Shown here: positions 1,535 through 46,517 of the stretch, piece by piece
How the letters are laid out: each line of letters starts with the position of its first letter
How positions within the stretch are numbered: the first letter of the stretch is position 1
Assembly: GCA_946415785.1 (NCBI GenBank)
Contig: CAMKTV010000007.1
Coordinates: forward strand, 1 to 47,251
Direction: 5' to 3'
Origin: an uncultured Solobacterium sp.
Lineage (GTDB): Bacteria > Bacillota_I > Bacilli_A > Erysipelotrichales > Erysipelotrichaceae
Length of the DNA: 47,251 nt
Made by a program: the position numbers and the translations under genes
The notes under the pieces: model-generated
Told to the model about the DNA's origin: nothing
What the model saw: only the letters and a program-made list of their open reading frames with translations
Databases searched by the model: none

Positions 1535-1549
1535 TATACTAACAGTATA
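1535..1549. promoter_or_regulatory. Operator-like inverted repeat (6-3-6)
   Basis: TATACT-AAC-AGTATA is a perfect inverted repeat about 25 bp upstream of a TATACT -10 element at 1573-1578. Palindromes of this size are typical XRE binding sites, and an XRE gene lies just downstream, so autoregulation is plausible but inferred. Confidence 0.4.
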
Positions 1550-1600
1550 CTTTTATTTTATTTTTAATTTGTTATACTAATTTCGTAAGGAGTAAATAAT

Positions 1601-1717
1601 ATGAAAGTCAGAATGATACGTACTTTAAATTATTGTATGCATGAACCTCAACTATCTATTAGTTTTGATCATGATTTTTTCAGTACGTATTCTGCTTCAG
1701 TTTTAATTAGGCAATAG
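1601..1717 (+). CDS. Possible 38-residue peptide
   Basis: Short frame from ATG 1601 to TAG 1715-1717 with a good ribosome site (AAGGAG about 8 nt upstream) and a TATACT -10 box at 1573-1578. The peptide (MKVRMIRTLNYC...) is not recognised, has no membrane segment, and is rich in His, Ser and Phe in its second half. It may be a real small gene, a leader peptide, or a truncated remnant. The RBS and promoter are the only support. Confidence 0.35.
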   Translation: MKVRMIRTLNYCMHEPQLSISFDHDFFSTYSASVLIRQ

Positions 1718-1746
1718 ATTTATAATCTTAATAATCTTGGATAATG

Positions 1747-1780
1747 ACCGCTCACTGTTGCAGAATGGTGAGCGGTTTTT
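1747..1780 (+). terminator. Intrinsic terminator/attenuator before the XRE gene
   Basis: Stem ACCGCTCAC / GTGAGCGGT (9 bp, 12-nt loop) followed by a T run. It sits directly before the ribosome site of the XRE gene and downstream of a TATAAT at 1721-1726, so it may act as an attenuator in that gene's leader. Confidence 0.7.
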
Positions 1781-1800
1781 GTTTAAGGAAGGTGATTTAT

Positions 1801-2028
1801 ATGGTGTTAATAAAATTAAATATGATAGAAACGGGAAACAATATATCTCGTTTAAGAAAAGAAAAAGGTTTGTCTATAAAAGAAATACAAGAGGCAATGG
1901 GCTTCAATACTCCACAAGCGATATTCAAGTGGCAAAGAGGTGAAACATTACCTAGCGTAGATAACTTAGTTGTTTTAGCTCAGTTGTTTGAAACCACTAT
2001 AGATGAAATAATCGCAAAAGAAAAATAA
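1801..2028 (+). CDS. Small XRE-family helix-turn-helix regulator
   Basis: A 75-residue DNA-binding protein. The HTH_3 fold runs from about residue 12 to 70, with ISRLRKEKGLSIKEIQEAMG as helices 1-2 and PQAIFKWQRGETLPSVDNL as the recognition region. I start at ATG 1801 because AAGGAAGGTG lies 8 nt upstream; a longer frame from 1744 would read through a terminator hairpin. Single-domain regulators of this size commonly repress their own promoter or a neighbouring mobile gene. A 15-bp inverted repeat at 1535-1549 is a candidate site. Targets are unknown. Confidence 0.85.
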   Translation: MVLIKLNMIETGNNISRLRKEKGLSIKEIQEAMGFNTPQAIFKWQRGETLPSVDNLVVLAQLFETTIDEIIAKEK

Positions 2029-2095: not shown

Positions 2096-2170
2096 GTAGA
2101 CTATAGGCCAATGGTAGGCCAATTGATTGTGGCTCAATAGATTTCGGTTCGATTCCGAATAGTCTGCCCA
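2096..2170 (+). tRNA. tRNA-His(GTG)
   Basis: Cloverleaf folds cleanly: anticodon loop TTGTGGC on stem ATTGA/TCAAT, T loop TTCGATT. The extra G at -1 faces C73, the tRNA-His identity pair. CCA is encoded. First of 16 tRNAs in the array. Confidence 0.93.
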
Positions 2171-2173
2171 GAT

Positions 2174-2249
2174 AGCCTCTTGGCGAAATGGTTAACGCAT
2201 ACGGCTTTGAACCGCACACATGCAAGTTCGAGTCTTGCAGAGGCTGCCA
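2174..2249 (+). tRNA. tRNA-Gln(TTG)
   Basis: Acceptor AGCCTCT/AGAGGCT, D stem GCG/CGC, anticodon loop CTTTGAA, G73, CCA encoded. The anticodon stem has one A-C mismatch (28-42). Confidence 0.88.
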
Positions 2250-2254
2250 AATAT

Positions 2255-2331
2255 CTAGAAGTAGCTCAGTTTGGAAGAGCCATCGGTCTGGAGCCGAGAG
2301 GTCAAGAGTTCAAATCTCTTCTTCTAGACCA
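2255..2331 (+). tRNA. tRNA-Pro(TGG), C33
   Basis: Acceptor CTAGAAG/CTTCTAG with C1-G72 and A73 (Pro-like), D stem GCTC/GAGC, T stem AAGAG/CTCTT, CCA encoded. The anticodon loop TCTGGAG has C rather than the near-universal T at position 33. The outer anticodon pair 27-43 is A-G. Confidence 0.82.
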
Positions 2332-2333
2332 AT

Positions 2334-2407
2334 AGAAGTGTCGTCTAATGGCAGGATAATAGCCCCCAAACCTATTTATCTTCGTTCAAGTCGAAGCACT
2401 TCTGCCA
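2334..2407 (+). tRNA. tRNA-Trp(CCA), C33
   Basis: Acceptor AGAAGTG/CACTTCT, G73, CCA encoded, T arm CTTCG-TTCAAGT-CGAAG. The anticodon loop CCCCAAA has C33 where CTCCAAA is usual, and pair 31-39 is C-C. Otherwise Trp-like. Confidence 0.8.
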
Positions 2408-2409
2408 AT

Positions 2410-2486
2410 GAGCGAGTATGCGAACAGGTTTAGCAAATAGTCTTAGAAACTATTGTTTGTGAGTTCGAATCTCACCTCGTTCACCA
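2410..2486 (+). tRNA. tRNA-Leu(TAG) with short variable loop
   Basis: Acceptor GAGCGAG/CTCGTTC, A73, anticodon loop CTTAGAA on ATAGT/ACTAT, T arm GTGAG-TTCGAAT-CTCAC, CCA encoded. The D arm is large, as in class II tRNAs, but only five bases (TGTTT) separate the anticodon and T stems, so the long variable arm expected of bacterial tRNA-Leu is absent. Confidence 0.8.
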
Positions 2487-2488
2487 AC

Positions 2489-2563
2489 GGTCTTGTCGTA
2501 TAACGGCTAATATGTTTGACTGTCTATCAAAAGATAAGGGTTCAACTCCCTTCAGGACCGCCA
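2489..2563 (+). tRNA. tRNA-Asp(GTC)
   Basis: Acceptor GGTCTTG/CAGGACC, G73, anticodon loop CTGTCTA on TTTGA/TCAAA, T arm AAGGG-TTCAACT-CCCTT, CCA encoded. A regular Asp tRNA. Confidence 0.92.
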
Positions 2564-2564
2564 T

Positions 2565-2638
2565 AGGAGCTTAGTTTAATGGTAAAACGCACGATCGATA
2601 ATCGTGTGATGCAAGTTCGATTCTTACAGTTCCTACCA
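2565..2638 (+). tRNA. tRNA-Ile(GAT), C33
   Basis: Acceptor AGGAGCT/AGTTCCT, A73, D stem GTTT/AAAC, CCA encoded. The anticodon loop TCGATAA carries C33 (CTGATAA is usual). The T stem GCAAG/CTTAC has one C-A mismatch. Confidence 0.82.
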
Positions 2639-2640
2639 AC

Positions 2641-2715
2641 ATCCCTATAGGCTAATGGAAAAACTATTTGGCTAAAAACCAATTATTGCACGTTCAAATC
2701 GTGCCAGGGATACCA
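2641..2715 (+). tRNA. tRNA-like gene with anticodon AAA
   Basis: The T arm GCACG-TTCAAAT-CGTGC and encoded CCA are intact, but acceptor pair 7-66 is A-C, the D stem GGCT/AACT has a mismatch, and anticodon pair 27-43 is T-T. The loop CTAAAAA gives anticodon AAA (nominally Phe UUU), which bacteria do not normally use; a regular tRNA-Phe(GAA) lies nearby. It is one base away from a Leu(TAA) loop, so it may be a degenerate copy. Confidence 0.65.
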
Positions 2716-2717
2716 AT

Positions 2718-2792
2718 ACCCTCATCGTATAACGGATAATACACGAACCTTCTAAGTTTGCAATCTGGGTTCAATTCCTAGTGAGGGTGCCA
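2718..2792 (+). tRNA. tRNA-Arg(TCT)
   Basis: Acceptor ACCCTCA/TGAGGGT, G73, D stem GTAT/ATAC, anticodon loop CTTCTAA on CGAAC/GTTTG, T arm CTGGG-TTCAATT-CCTAG, CCA encoded. Confidence 0.92.
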
Positions 2793-2795
2793 AAA

Positions 2796-2870
2796 GATGT
2801 TATCGAATAAAGGTTAGTTCACCAGATTTTCAATCTGGCAATCCGGGTTCAAGTCCCGGTAACATCACCA
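2796..2870 (+). tRNA. tRNA-Glu(TTC)
   Basis: Acceptor GATGTTA/TAACATC, A73, anticodon loop TTTTCAA on CCAGA/TCTGG, T arm CCGGG-TTCAAGT-CCCGG, CCA encoded. All stems pair. Confidence 0.92.
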
Positions 2871-2873
2871 AAT

Positions 2874-2963
2874 GATAAGTTGGCCGAGTCTGGTTTATGG
2901 CGACAGTCCTGAAAACTGTTGTATCGAAAGATACCGTGGGTTCAAATCCTACACTTATCGCCA
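2874..2963 (+). tRNA. tRNA-Ser(TGA), C33
   Basis: Class II tRNA: variable arm GTATC-GAAA-GATAC, acceptor GATAAGT/ACTTATC, G73, CCA encoded. The anticodon loop CCTGAAA on ACAGT/ACTGT carries C33 (CTTGAAA is usual). Confidence 0.86.
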
Positions 2964-2965
2964 AT

Positions 2966-3049
2966 GGGCAGGTGGCAGAGTGGTCGATTGCGCCAGACTG
3001 TAAATCTGGTCTTAACAGCACGATAGTTCGAATCTATCCCTACCCACCA
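2966..3049 (+). tRNA. tRNA-Tyr(GTA)
   Basis: Class II tRNA with medium variable arm, D stem GCA/TGC, anticodon loop CTGTAAA on CCAGA/TCTGG, A73, CCA encoded. Acceptor pair 4-69 is C-A; otherwise regular. Confidence 0.9.
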
Positions 3050-3052
3050 AAC

Positions 3053-3128
3053 GGATCTGTAGCTCAGTTGGTAGAGCAGAAGATTGAAGGTCTTTGTGTC
3101 AGTGGTTCGAACCCACTTGGATCCACCA
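3053..3128 (+). tRNA. tRNA-Phe(GAA)
   Basis: Acceptor GGATCTG/TGGATCC (two G-T pairs), D stem GCTC/GAGC, anticodon loop TTGAAGG on GAAGA/TCTTT, A73, CCA encoded. Confidence 0.92.
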
Positions 3129-3131
3129 AAT

Positions 3132-3205
3132 GATTCTGTAGCCAAGAGGAAAGGCGAGGCGCCGCAACCGCCTAATCGTGAGTTCAAATCTCACCGGAAT
3201 CTCCA
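3132..3205 (+). tRNA. tRNA-Cys(GCA), C33
   Basis: Acceptor GATTCTG/CGGAATC with T73 (Cys identity base), D stem GCC/GGC, T arm GTGAG-TTCAAAT-CTCAC, CCA encoded. The anticodon loop CCGCAAC on AGGCG/CGCCT has C33. Confidence 0.87.
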
Positions 3206-3210
3206 TATGT

Positions 3211-3300
3211 GCAAAGATACTCAAATGGTAAAGAGGACAGCTTGCTAAACTGTTAGATTACAAAAGTGATGCGAGGGTTCAAATCCCTCTCTTTGCGCCA
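3211..3300 (+). tRNA. tRNA-Ser(GCT)
   Basis: Class II tRNA: acceptor GCAAAGA/TCTTTGC, G73, long variable arm, anticodon loop TTGCTAA, T arm GAGGG-TTCAAAT-CCCTC, CCA encoded. Anticodon pair 31-39 is C-A. Confidence 0.9.
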
Positions 3301-3304
3301 AAAT

Positions 3305-3379
3305 AGAAGCATAGTTTAATGGCAAGAACAAGCGCCTTATAAGCGCTAAATTCAAGTTCAATTCTTGATGCTTCTACCA
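3305..3379 (+). tRNA. tRNA-Ile(TAT)
   Basis: Acceptor AGAAGCA/TGCTTCT, A73, anticodon loop CTTATAA on a perfect AGCGC/GCGCT stem, T arm TCAAG-TTCAATT-CTTGA, CCA encoded. The anticodon TAT reads AUA directly; most bacteria instead use a CAT tRNA modified by TilS. Last tRNA of the array. Confidence 0.88.
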
Positions 3380-4627: not shown

Positions 4628-4739
4628 TCATTGTGCCATTATTTGATTGTGAGTAATAGTGTTGTGTCAGTCTTGTTTTAATAAGATAAGAATAATTTTG
4701 TTGGCAAAGATATTAATAACTGATGCAACAATATCAGAA

Positions 4740-5072
4740 CTAAAACTCGCAATGAAATATGAAAGTGAATACAGGCCACCAAAAATAAAAAAGCAATTTC
4801 AATTCAAGATAGCATCGTCTTAGCTATTGGCTAAAGAAAGAAATTGGGTTTTACTTTCTGGAGATAGTGGATTAAGACAAGCGACTGTACTTGAGGGAGT
4901 TGTTTGTCATGGAACTCTTTGGGTATATGATGAATTATTGAATAATGAATTGCTATCTAGTGATGAATATTTAAAAGCTGTGAAACAATTATTAATAGCT
5001 GTTGAAGACAATAAAAGGTATTTGCCTAAAAAAGAAATATTAAAACGAATATGTTTTATAGAAAACATATAA
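4740..5072 (+). pseudogene. Broken PIN-domain protein gene
   Basis: The intact 3' part (from 4827, LAKERNWVLLSGD...) matches the C-terminal half of PIN-fold proteins: the acidic SGDSGLR strand, then VCHGTLWVYDELL and a helical tail. Upstream, the expected preceding residues DSIVLAIG are present near 4805-4822 but in another frame ending in TAA, and pieces further upstream fall in yet other frames. I read this as a degraded gene with at least two frameshifts and no usable start. PIN proteins are Mg-dependent RNases, often VapC-type toxins; function here is presumably lost. Confidence 0.6.
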
Positions 5073-7737: not shown

Positions 7738-8703
7738 TTAACGTTTTCCTAATAAAAATAATAATAATTTAAATTTTTTTCTTTTAAATAAATAAAAGAA
7801 TATTCTCTTTTTAAAACCCATTTCTTTTATAAGATGATTCTTATACCAAGAAGGATAATAGCTTTCTAATATTTCTAAATTTTTATTTAGATATTTAATT
7901 TTTTCAGACTTATAATCAACTATTCTTAAAGTAGTTAAATTAGCCCCATGAATAATATAATAATCATTAAATTTTTCTTCAATATATTTTGAATCTTTAT
8001 AAAAAGACATTGATAATATTTCTTTTTTAACTTTATCAATCGCTTTATAGATATCAAAGATTCTTTCATCAATTCTGTGGACTATAGAACCACTTCTTTG
8101 GAAATAATGATAAAGCACTTTATCTACTTTAGAAATATAATTAGCACTGGCTAAAATAGTTGGTATACTGCCTAAATCTTCATACCACATGCCTTTAGGG
8201 AATCTATAATCAACAAATAATTTTTTAGAAAATAATTTATCGCAGGCAGAATTAGCGATAAAGATTAAATCATTGTTTTCTTTTGGATTACCTTTTTTAA
8301 AAAATGACACTTCATTCTGTTTAACAAAGCCACCTTCATAAACATAATCTAGATTGCAGACAACAACATCAGCATTATCTGTTGTTGCTTGATTGACTAA
8401 TAATTCGATGGCATCATTTTCAATATAATCATCGCTATCCACAAACATATAATAATCACCTGTTGCCTTATCTATGCCGTAATTTCTTGCATCAGATAAG
8501 CCACCATTTTCTTTAATATATGATTTAACATTCTGATATTTATTCGCATATTCATCAACTATTGTCTGGCTGTTATCTTTTGAGCCATCATTAATGCATA
8601 ATATTTCAATATCTTTATAGCTTTGATTAACTAAAGAATCTAAGCATTTTCTTAGATATTTCTCAACATTATAGATAGGAACAATAATACTGACTTTGGC
8701 CAT
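7738..8703 (-). CDS. GT2-family glycosyltransferase
   Basis: GT-A fold inverting transferase, 321 residues. IIVPIYNVEKYLRKCLDSL opens the domain, CINDGSKDNS binds nucleotide, and FVDSDDYI holds the metal-binding DxD-type motif. WYEDLGSIPTI is the usual acceptor-side acidic motif. The C-terminus is basic and probably membrane-associated. It is closely similar to the GT2 proteins encoded at 24753 and 25733. It is first in a two-gene minus-strand unit with the DUF6056 protein and has a TATAAT 6 nt before its ATG. Donor sugar unknown. Confidence 0.92.
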   Translation of the reverse strand: MAKVSIIVPIYNVEKYLRKCLDSLVNQSYKDIEILCINDGSKDNSQTIVDEYANKYQNVKSYIKENGGLSDARNYGIDKATGDYYMFVDSDDYIENDAIELLVNQATTDNADVVVCNLDYVYEGGFVKQNEVSFFKKGNPKENNDLIFIANSACDKLFSKKLFVDYRFPKGMWYEDLGSIPTILASANYISKVDKVLYHYFQRSGSIVHRIDERIFDIYKAIDKVKKEILSMSFYKDSKYIEEKFNDYYIIHGANLTTLRIVDYKSEKIKYLNKNLEILESYYPSWYKNHLIKEMGFKKRIFFYLFKRKKFKLLLFLLGKR

Positions 8704-45102: not shown

Positions 45103-45942
45103 TTATTTAGATATTAGTGGAAGAACTGAGTTTTTAATATATTTAATTGTATCTTCTAAAGAAACATCAACTTCAGTTTTCTTTTTCTTAACAAATGAAT
45201 TCCATCTAGTGATATGAACTGGACTTTTATAGAAATCGGGAGAGAAAGCATCAAAATTTATTGACAAGTCAGCATTTCTATTCTTAAACGTTTCAGTAAT
45301 AGCGTCACGCAATGATTCTTTATTAATAGAATAATTATTACCTAAAATATAAATATCATAGAAATCTTTATACCTACTATTATCAAATCCATTAGATACA
45401 ATTGCTTCTAGTTTTTCAGCAATAGCGGTTTCTACTGAATAAGCTTGAATCTTAGGTGCTTCATTATCAAGAATAGTAGGGAACTCAATTTCAATAGAAT
45501 CAGGATATATTACATCACCATAACCAATATCAATGGAAATAGGTATTTGTGTTTTATCTAGATATGTAAAGATTTTAACATTTAGTCCATGATAATCTTT
45601 AAATTCTGTAATATTAGTAACTGATAAAGAGTTTAGATCAAATTCTAATCCATCATCTACTTTTTGAGAAAATATATCTTCAAATACTTCTTTCATCTCG
45701 ACATCACTATTCGATATTCTTCTAGCTAATAAATCAATATCAGCAGTGGCTCTTAGGTAGTTTTTATCAAATAGGGCGTATAAAAATATTCCGCCTTTTA
45801 AAACAAAATGATTGGCATATTTTGATATTGAAATACGATAAATTGTTCTTTCGAGGCCATAATATGTCTGCATTTGTTGGACTGTTTTGTTTGAAGCGGT
45901 AGCTTCATTTCTTAATCTATCTTTTATTGATTGAACATTCAT
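45103..45942 (-). CDS. AbiEii-type nucleotidyltransferase toxin
   Basis: 279 residues of the AbiEii/AbiGii family. Nucleotidyltransferase core: HFVLKGGIFLYALF, then ATADIDLLARR with metal-binding D68 and D70; later AIAEKLEAIVSNG and SRYKDFYDIYIL match the family's Lys and Arg/Asp motifs. Related toxins block growth by modifying tRNA or other nucleotide-bearing targets, and AbiE gives phage abortive infection. Overlaps the antitoxin gene by 4 bp, so both are made from one mRNA. Confidence 0.92.
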   Translation of the reverse strand: MNVQSIKDRLRNEATASNKTVQQMQTYYGLERTIYRISISKYANHFVLKGGIFLYALFDKNYLRATADIDLLARRISNSDVEMKEVFEDIFSQKVDDGLEFDLNSLSVTNITEFKDYHGLNVKIFTYLDKTQIPISIDIGYGDVIYPDSIEIEFPTILDNEAPKIQAYSVETAIAEKLEAIVSNGFDNSRYKDFYDIYILGNNYSINKESLRDAITETFKNRNADLSINFDAFSPDFYKSPVHITRWNSFVKKKKTEVDVSLEDTIKYIKNSVLPLISK

Positions 45943-46517
45943 AGCAGCGCCTCCAGATAAGTTCTTAGAATTTTCTCACATCTAAGTTCTTTTGCATACC
46001 TATGAAGTTTATTAAAATCTCTATCTTTTCTATTTAGATAATTCTTAAGAACTTTTATTGTATCTTCAATAGATACTTTGTTTCTAAAAGACAGCATATC
46101 AATAACTATTTTTTCTTTGTCAAAGATTTTATATGAATTACCATTTTCACTTACTTCAATTACACCAATCGTCATCCTTTTGTCACTATAATAACGAAGT
46201 TCAATTGATGGATTCTTTGGAAGAGTAGAGACTTTCTTGTCTCTATCAATCGCAACATTGATATATGGTGGTACATAGTTTGATAGTCCATAATGATAAG
46301 CTGCAGAATATTCACATATTACACCATCTGGTATATATGCATTGGCAATACAAAAGTCATTATAATCACCTTTATAATTTACGTTCTCATATGTACTACG
46401 ATTGATCTTATTCAATTTTCCTTCTTCTACTAGTTTATTTATCTTGTAGTAAGAAAGACCTTTTTCTTTAAGATCATCAAGTGTTATAAATTGTGAATTA
46501 AACTCTATGTTTTCCAT
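45939..46517 (-). CDS. AbiEi-type antitoxin
   Basis: 192 residues. N-terminal winged-helix (about 10-60, FITLDDLKEKGLSYYKINKLVEEG) typical of the AbiEi DNA-binding domain, then a middle domain with EYSAAYHYGLS and a C-terminal helical part. Family knowledge: represses its own operon and counters AbiEii (type IV system). TATAAT lies 8 nt before ATG with a TTGAAT -35 17 nt further upstream. Confidence 0.9.
   Translation of the reverse strand: MENIEFNSQFITLDDLKEKGLSYYKINKLVEEGKLNKINRSTYENVNYKGDYNDFCIANAYIPDGVICEYSAAYHYGLSNYVPPYINVAIDRDKKVSTLPKNPSIELRYYSDKRMTIGVIEVSENGNSYKIFDKEKIVIDMLSFRNKVSIEDTIKVLKNYLNRKDRDFNKLHRYAKELRCEKILRTYLEALL

Follow-up and report, generated by a model that had tools for sequence, protein, structure and literature searches.

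Two questions are raised by the tRNA genes that lie close to one end of a contig from an uncultured Solobacterium sp.: what a chromosomal array of this kind is for, and why several of its tRNAs have C at anticodon-loop position 33. The window, by which we mean the whole stretch of 47,251 nucleotides that was analysed, is the start of contig C7 in an assembly of 1.37 Mb that is 88% complete; the relatives of this assembly within the genus are Erysipelotrichaceae MAGs from rumen and gut. The array consists of 16 tRNA genes at 2097-3379 on the + strand, all of which were found by both ARAGORN and Rfam RF00005. Dense clusters of at least 20 tRNAs have been described as tRNA array units in Bacillota, phages and plasmids, with no description of their regulation (PMC5966550; definition of Tran 2016), and the present 16 genes in 1.28 kb reach the density of such a unit (at least 2/kb) but not the number of genes. 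An insurance array, mobile or phage-derived and resistant to tRNA-cutting toxins, had been proposed from the sequence alone.

Leader ORF, terminator and antiterminator upstream of the array

The region upstream of the array contains, in this order, a promoter palindrome, a leader ORF, an intrinsic terminator and an HTH gene, which is followed by the tRNAs (Table 1). The same order of palindrome and promoter, Shine-Dalgarno sequence, leader ORF, terminator, HTH gene and tRNA array is found in nearly every relative, the clear exception being L140, where RtcB lies just upstream of the HTH gene. The palindrome, as TATACY-N3-RGTATA or a close variant, occupies the same position before most leaders of Erysipelotrichaceae and Ruminococcus.

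Table 1. Positions of the upstream elements and tRNA genes in the window
Feature	Position	Strand	Remarks
Palindrome TATACT-AAC-AGTATA	1535..1549	.	Overlaps -35 region; candidate HTH operator, binding inferred
-10 box TATACT of predicted promoter	1573..1578	+	Read from sequence; TATAAT-like boxes in relatives
Shine-Dalgarno AAGGAGT of leader ORF	1587..1593	+	
Leader ORF, 38 codons, MKVRMIRTLNYCMHEPQLSISFDHDFFSTYSASVLIRQ	1601..1717	+	Cognate codons for 15/16 array tRNAs
Antiterminator strand ATTCTGC-TT-CAGT in leader 3′ part	1689..1701	+	Pairs with ACTG-TT-GCAGAAT at 1754-1766
Intrinsic terminator GACCGCTCACTGTT(GCAG)AATGGTGAGCGGTT with T-rich tail	1746..1783	+	-21 kcal/mol; same element in nearly all relatives
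Small Cro/C1-type HTH protein (HTH_3)	1801..2028	+	Pfam PF01381 E 2e-11; cistron between terminator and array; linked to tRNA arrays across Bacillota
tRNA-His(GTG)	2097..2170	+	T33; G-1 at 2096
tRNA-Gln(TTG)	2174..2249	+	
tRNA-Pro(TGG)	2255..2331	+	C33 at 2288; A37
tRNA-Trp(CCA)	2334..2407	+	C33 at 2365; C31-C39 mismatch; sole array tRNA without leader codon
tRNA-Leu(TAG)	2410..2486	+	Short variable arm; A37
tRNA-Asp(GTC)	2489..2563	+	U37
tRNA-Ile(GAT)	2565..2638	+	C33 at 2596
tRNA-Phe(AAA)	2641..2715	+	Unusual anticodon
tRNA-Arg(TCT)	2718..2792	+	
tRNA-Glu(TTC)	2796..2870	+	
tRNA-Ser(TGA)	2874..2963	+	C33 at 2909
tRNA-Tyr(GTA)	2966..3049	+	
tRNA-Phe(GAA)	3053..3128	+	
tRNA-Cys(GCA)	3132..3205	+	C33 at 3163
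tRNA-Ser(GCT)	3211..3300	+	
tRNA-Ile(TAT)	3305..3379	+	

The idea that the codons of the leader match the tRNAs of the array was set down before the leaders of any relatives were examined. In the window leader, which contains no Trp codon, 18 of the 22 codons at positions 9-30 are read by array tRNAs (background 0.55, p = 0.008). An uninterrupted run of 15 codons is read entirely by array tRNAs (CAT GAA CCT CAA CTA TCT ATT AGT TTT GAT CAT GAT TTT TTC AGT), and a run of this length was reached by 0 of 20000 random stretches of the window's own ORFs.

The same comparison was made across related loci, with leaders picked automatically by Shine-Dalgarno strength, start codon and length, blind to the content of the array, and with cognate codons assigned by wobble rules that respect amino-acid identity. 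An ORF with a Shine-Dalgarno sequence, whose translation is predicted, was found by this rule in 79 of 83 array loci, from which 31 non-redundant loci with leaders less than 50% alike were drawn. In these 31 loci, the leaders contain cognate codons for 153 of the 163 tRNAs of their own arrays. The fraction of codons read is 0.274 for the own leader-array pairing and 0.201 (sd 0.011) for permuted pairings (z 7.0, 0/100000), and at codons 9-30 the corresponding values are 0.388 and 0.244 (z 8.1). Four loci with a wrong or doubtful leader ORF were kept in the 31-locus permutation and, after inspection, left out of the 27-locus tests; their removal raises z to 8.1 for all codons and to 8.9 for codons 9-30. 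The enrichment over local codon usage has a combined p of 6e-37 in the 27 loci and falls mainly on codons 11-30, ahead of the antiterminator region, with a matched fraction that peaks at 0.56 at codons 16-20 and is 0.16-0.17 from codon 31 on.

The match is seen in Erysipelotrichaceae, Ruminococcus, Lachnospiraceae, other clostridia and phage contigs, and differing arrays are accompanied by differing leaders. The leader is SRKQGRGFTPIMNTRHEK for the array of L111 (Lys, Gly, Asn, Thr, Met, Arg, Pro and others), FQHEQFIEAIDFIIQDSDF for that of L112 (Gln, His, Phe, Glu, Ile, Asp), YLYSEHYEESFYHESEE for that of L134 (Glu, His, Tyr, Ser) and SLYLHSELSESLYSS for that of the phage locus L215 (Glu, His, Ser, Tyr). 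Three of the 10 tRNAs without a leader codon belong to L215, where the automatic choice of ORF was wrong; the evident leader of this locus, MTTFRSLYLHSELSESLYSSLAFQFACADNGKI, lists Ser, Tyr, His and Glu, which fits the array Glu-His-Ser-Tyr-Ser.

The terminator is present in 26 of the 27 loci tested, and in 26 loci the 3′ part of the leader (mostly ~codons 27-45) is complementary to the terminator 5′ arm and loop, with a mean z of -2.2 against dinucleotide-shuffled leaders. In the window, the segment that starts at ~codon 29 and stops just short of the terminator 3′ arm adopts the antiterminator fold at -16.0 kcal/mol, and the duplex of the window taken alone is only marginally better than shuffled sequence. 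In an alignment of 11 Erysipelotrichaceae loci (A3), the 12-pair antiterminator helix is 88% paired and 4 pairs are changed on both sides; 0 of 500 shuffles score as high for pairing and covariation, and slid versions of the helix pair at 35-53%. The codon list lies upstream of the antiterminator strand, which is the layout needed for a stalled ribosome to expose that strand. The sequence elements of an attenuator, namely a leader ORF with a Shine-Dalgarno sequence, product-related codons, an intrinsic terminator and a mutually exclusive antiterminator, are all found.

Distribution of the module and its RtcB and Ro60-like neighbours

A search with the window array revealed similar arrays in other genomes of the same genus, at different places, and an HTH gene precedes each array found in this way, with the exception of L054 and its single tRNA. 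Seven HTH proteins were aligned (A1), and the alignment retrieved 74 loci from named genomes, spanning Erysipelotrichaceae, Solobacterium, Ruminococcus flavefaciens and R. albus, Oscillospiraceae and Lachnospiraceae, and in most of these loci the tRNA genes begin a few tens to 350 bases downstream of the HTH gene. The HTH protein alone was rejected as a marker of the system; a broad search for this protein in the taxonomic class gives many distant paralogues without a tRNA array.

Within the genus, the HTH gene is present in 11 of 36 genomes, a patchy spread that indicates horizontal movement. The module is also carried by viral contigs, which include L215/L216 with tail sheath and homing endonuclease genes nearby, L205 and L210 with serine integrases, and L203 and L213 with ParB-like or shared genes. 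The part of the original prediction that called the array mobile or phage-derived is supported for the module as a whole, in view of its patchiness in the genus and its presence on phage- and integrase-bearing contigs, but not for the immediate surroundings of the window array, which is not in a phage genome: its flanks are GH25 lysozyme-like and glycosyltransferase-like genes, and no phage genes adjoin it within the window. A whole-array search of phage and plasmid records gave scattered single-tRNA matches, none resembling the whole array, and no further array came from rescanning viral sequences with an HTH alignment weighted towards phages.

In three genomes of the set (G011, G024 and G421; loci L055, L056 and L219), the array adjoins genes for a WYL-domain protein, a DUF2828 protein and the RNA ligase RtcB, and the same three genes lie beside a solitary Leu(TAG) gene in G008 (L054). 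Two clostridial MAG contigs, L140 and L115, have RtcB immediately before the HTH gene. In L115, RtcB is itself preceded by a leader ORF and terminator and followed by the HTH gene, and in the short remainder of this contig no array could be recognised. The DUF2828 protein matches PHROG 850, an RNA-binding protein, and the best PDB match of its model, a low-confidence one with a mean pLDDT of 57, is Ro60 of the Thermus phage phiLo; the sequence search did not establish the DUF2828 protein as Ro60. The association with RtcB is not tight: within the genus, RtcB is found in 6 of 11 genomes with the array (HTH) and in 6 of 25 others, and none was found in the window's own genome (88% complete).

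Additionally, the divergent DUF2828 and WYL genes flank a tRNA-like gene at L217:6525-6597 (within longer flanking repeats), L219:5984-6055 and L222:7707-7774. This gene is possibly a Y RNA with a tRNA-like domain; the Rfam YrlA model gave no match to the L217 stretch. L217 also carries an array beside RtcB without an HTH gene, in which a 77-nt tRNA at 8107-8183 with anticodon TCA and C33 is called SeC by ARAGORN.

A predicted attenuation mechanism and its alternatives

The anatomy of the locus, the match of codons to array, the complementary RNA elements with their conservation, and the gene linkages are read directly from the DNA, and they suggest an operon for tRNA replacement that is controlled by ribosome-mediated transcription attenuation, a reading to which we assign a probability of about 0.78. 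The promoter, probably bound at the overlapping palindrome by the operon's own HTH protein, would yield a leader RNA, and a ribosome would translate the 38-codon leader, the middle of which would serve as a list of codons for the downstream tRNAs. When the listed tRNAs are present, the ribosome would reach the end of the leader and cover the antiterminator strand (codons ~30-34); with that strand covered, the terminator would form and transcription would end before the HTH gene and the array. When any listed tRNA is missing, for example because an anticodon nuclease has cut it during phage conflict or the action of a toxin, the ribosome would stall within the list, the 3′ part of the leader would pair with the 5′ side of the terminator, and read-through into the HTH gene and the 16 replacement tRNAs would follow. 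Termination and read-through in vivo, the inducing signal, the role of the HTH protein, and the charging and use of the tRNAs are the parts of this mechanism that we infer.

The attenuators of amino-acid operons (trp, his, leu) consist of a short ORF with regulatory codons, an antiterminator strand in or near its 3′ part and an intrinsic terminator before the structural genes, and the array leader has the same anatomy. Ribosome stalling occurs with uncharged as well as with missing tRNA, and the sequence does not separate the sensing of the one from the sensing of the other. The leader could thus respond to uncharged tRNA, that is, to amino-acid starvation as in the trp and his operons, and the array would merely adjust tRNA supply. 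We nevertheless consider starvation sensing unlikely and favour a missing tRNA as the signal, because the list spans many amino acids (up to 12 at once, which sets it apart from the regulatory codons of the trp, his and leu leaders), because the output is cognate tRNA and not biosynthetic enzymes or transport, and because the recurrently linked genes encode an RNA ligase and a Ro60-like protein. The linkage of related operons to RtcB and the Ro60-like gene points to tRNA damage.

The HTH protein may instead be the true sensor, for example through derepression under stress, with the leader as a minor input. A conserved palindrome overlaps the promoter, and there is a precedent in the trn operon of Anabaena PCC 7120, a silent extra array of 26 tRNAs on a megaplasmid that is activated by translational stress and is repressed, as is rtcB, a member of the same regulon, by TrcR (PMC10272220). 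However, a sensor of this type cannot explain why leaders list the tRNAs of their own array, nor the complementary RNA elements, and we regard it as quite unlikely. The two systems share an extra tRNA array and an association with rtcB, whereas the Anabaena operon has an RHH repressor at its promoter and PMC10272220 mentions no leader, terminator or attenuation. It is most improbable that the array is an expressed, horizontally acquired aid to codon usage with an incidental leader and terminator: its tRNAs do read common codons (55% of the window's codons), but chromosomal copies of nearly all isoacceptors exist, and loci from Erysipelotrichaceae to phages have kept both the terminator and a matched leader.

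The attenuated tRNA-replacement operon can be further compared with two known responses to tRNA damage. Phage tRNAs that evade nucleases (PMC10264068, PMC11555353) are similar in tRNA replacement, in altered anticodon loops and in their occurrence on phages; these papers treat the tRNAs, whereas the present arrays carry their own predicted sensor of tRNA loss and also occur in bacterial chromosomes. The RtcR-controlled rsr-yrlBA-rtcBA operon (PMC7790460) likewise combines RtcB and a Ro60-like protein in a response to tRNA damage. RtcR senses tRNA fragments via a CARF domain (PMC7790460), whereas a WYL protein adjoins the present arrays; moreover, RtcB of L115 follows a tRNA-list leader and the window's genome is without RtcB. 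Among the known systems that were looked into, none is described as having a leader peptide that lists the tRNAs of its own array, and no relevant literature on tRNA arrays or operons with a leader peptide and attenuation was found in open-access PMC text, although an earlier description elsewhere is possible.

The system would be an attenuation variant in a new role. At the level of sequence, the proposal of an insurance array is strongly supported by the predicted tRNA-sensing leader and attenuator, the RtcB and Ro60-like linkage, the patchy presence in the genus and the phage and integrase contigs. We see somewhat better than even odds for the broader view that this is a widespread, horizontally moving surveillance of tRNA loss in bacteria and phages, in which one leader tests many tRNAs and its failure releases nuclease-resistant copies of exactly those tRNAs, with RtcB/Ro60-like repair in some versions. 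If true, such surveillance would serve phages as a counter-defence and let hosts recover from toxins that cut tRNAs. No function has been agreed on for the tRNA arrays of phages and bacteria in the decades since they became known, and their control is known for few; here, each array would carry a readable statement of its inducing signal, the leader listing the tRNAs whose loss should switch the array on. The matched leaders make the insurance idea directly testable, yield predictions of the tRNA targets in rumen bacteria and their phages, and tie tRNA arrays to RtcB and Ro60-like RNA repair.

Position 33 and other changes in the anticodon loop

The presence of C33 in Pro(TGG), Trp(CCA), Ile(GAT), Ser(TGA) and Cys(GCA), that is, in 5 of the 16 array genes, was confirmed, and the discriminator bases and intact T arms previously described for these genes were likewise borne out. 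Their anticodon stems are intact except in Trp (the C31-C39 mismatch) and Pro (an outermost A-G pair), and every gene of the array scores above the Rfam RF00005 gathering score of 29, at 44-68 bits. In the rest of the genome, for which a tRNA set was assembled from RF00005 searches and fetched regions, T33 versions of all five isoacceptors are present and C33 occurs in 1 of 34 tRNA genes, namely Gly(TCC); the difference between 5/16 and 1/34 has a Fisher p of 0.0098. The alternative that C33 is a conserved lineage trait of sole copies does not apply to the five isoacceptors, since their chromosomal copies are T33 in the window's own genome and also in G001, a relative (99% complete) that lacks such an array.

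The chromosomal Gly(TCC) gene with C33 (L065:6268-6341, on contig C9 of the same genome) has the loop CCTCCAA, and no second copy was found in the assembly. Gly(TCC) of G001 (L237:7910) is also C33, with no second copy found, as is one Met(CAT) gene of G001. Since the sole chromosomal Gly(TCC) is C33, this base need not abolish function; C33 is unusual, yet compatible with an essential tRNA in the genus.

Beyond the window, C33 is found in 26 of 306 distinct genes of HTH-linked arrays and in 3 of 116 non-array genes from three genomes (p = 0.03, for genes that are not mutually independent). It recurs in the array Pro(TGG) of several species and one viral contig (L104, L105, L107, L110, L111 and L213), in Ile(GAT) of L107 and L110, in Ser(TGA) of the phage arrays L215 and L216, in Phe(GAA) of R. 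flavefaciens arrays and in His of Oscillospiraceae arrays. A sequencing error is unlikely, given that other species have C33 in the same array genes, Pro(TGG) and Ile(GAT), and a viral contig has it in its array Pro. Many array anticodon loops also differ from those of their own chromosomal isoacceptors, as in Pro and Leu(TAG), where A37 replaces the chromosomal G37.

Mutations in phage tRNA loops have been proposed to evade VapC, PrrC and colicins (PMC10264068), and C33 with the other loop changes (A37 in Pro and Leu; positions 32, 37 and 38) may similarly have been selected for escape from nucleases. This is a tentative reading, to which we give less than even odds. The array loops diverge from the chromosomal copies while the chromosomal loops of G000 and G001 stay nearly identical, and the recurrence of C33 in Pro(TGG), Phe(GAA), His and phage Ser(TGA) is consistent with selection. 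On the other hand, the majority of the array tRNAs keep U33, the sole chromosomal Gly(TCC) is C33 even in the array-free G001, no nuclease or cut site has been identified for the array tRNAs, and position 33 is unmentioned in PMC10264068. The array tRNAs have moreover diverged along their whole length, and the loop differences also fit drift in a separately evolving gene pool. Escape through C33, a speculative addition, would add to the attenuation explanation and not replace it. That the C33 genes are degenerating pseudo-tRNAs is very unlikely: the mismatched Trp has the lowest score (44 bits) and Phe(AAA) and the short-arm Leu are odd, but all scores exceed the threshold, the stems are intact, as are the T arms, arrays of different species have C33 in common, and every C33 gene except Trp has a leader codon.

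Several further features were observed in the window and in related loci. The array Leu(TAG) gene is 77 nt long, compared with 83 nt for its chromosomal counterpart, and the short-arm form is also present in related arrays. The anticodon AAA of the first Phe gene is normally absent from bacteria, and the TTT codon occurs in the window leader. In L107, tRNA-length gaps without an ARAGORN gene, inside the array at L107:8300-8620, possibly hold divergent tRNA-like genes, and a tRNA-Sec-like match of 26.9 bits covers the His gene. In the window, an apparent gene remnant in two frames at 4653-5072 has no Pfam match, and a PIN-like reading of 4824-5069 was discarded for want of Pfam support. An AbiEi/AbiEii-like type IV toxin-antitoxin pair lies at 45103-46517 on the - strand (Pfam AbiEii E 1e-40).
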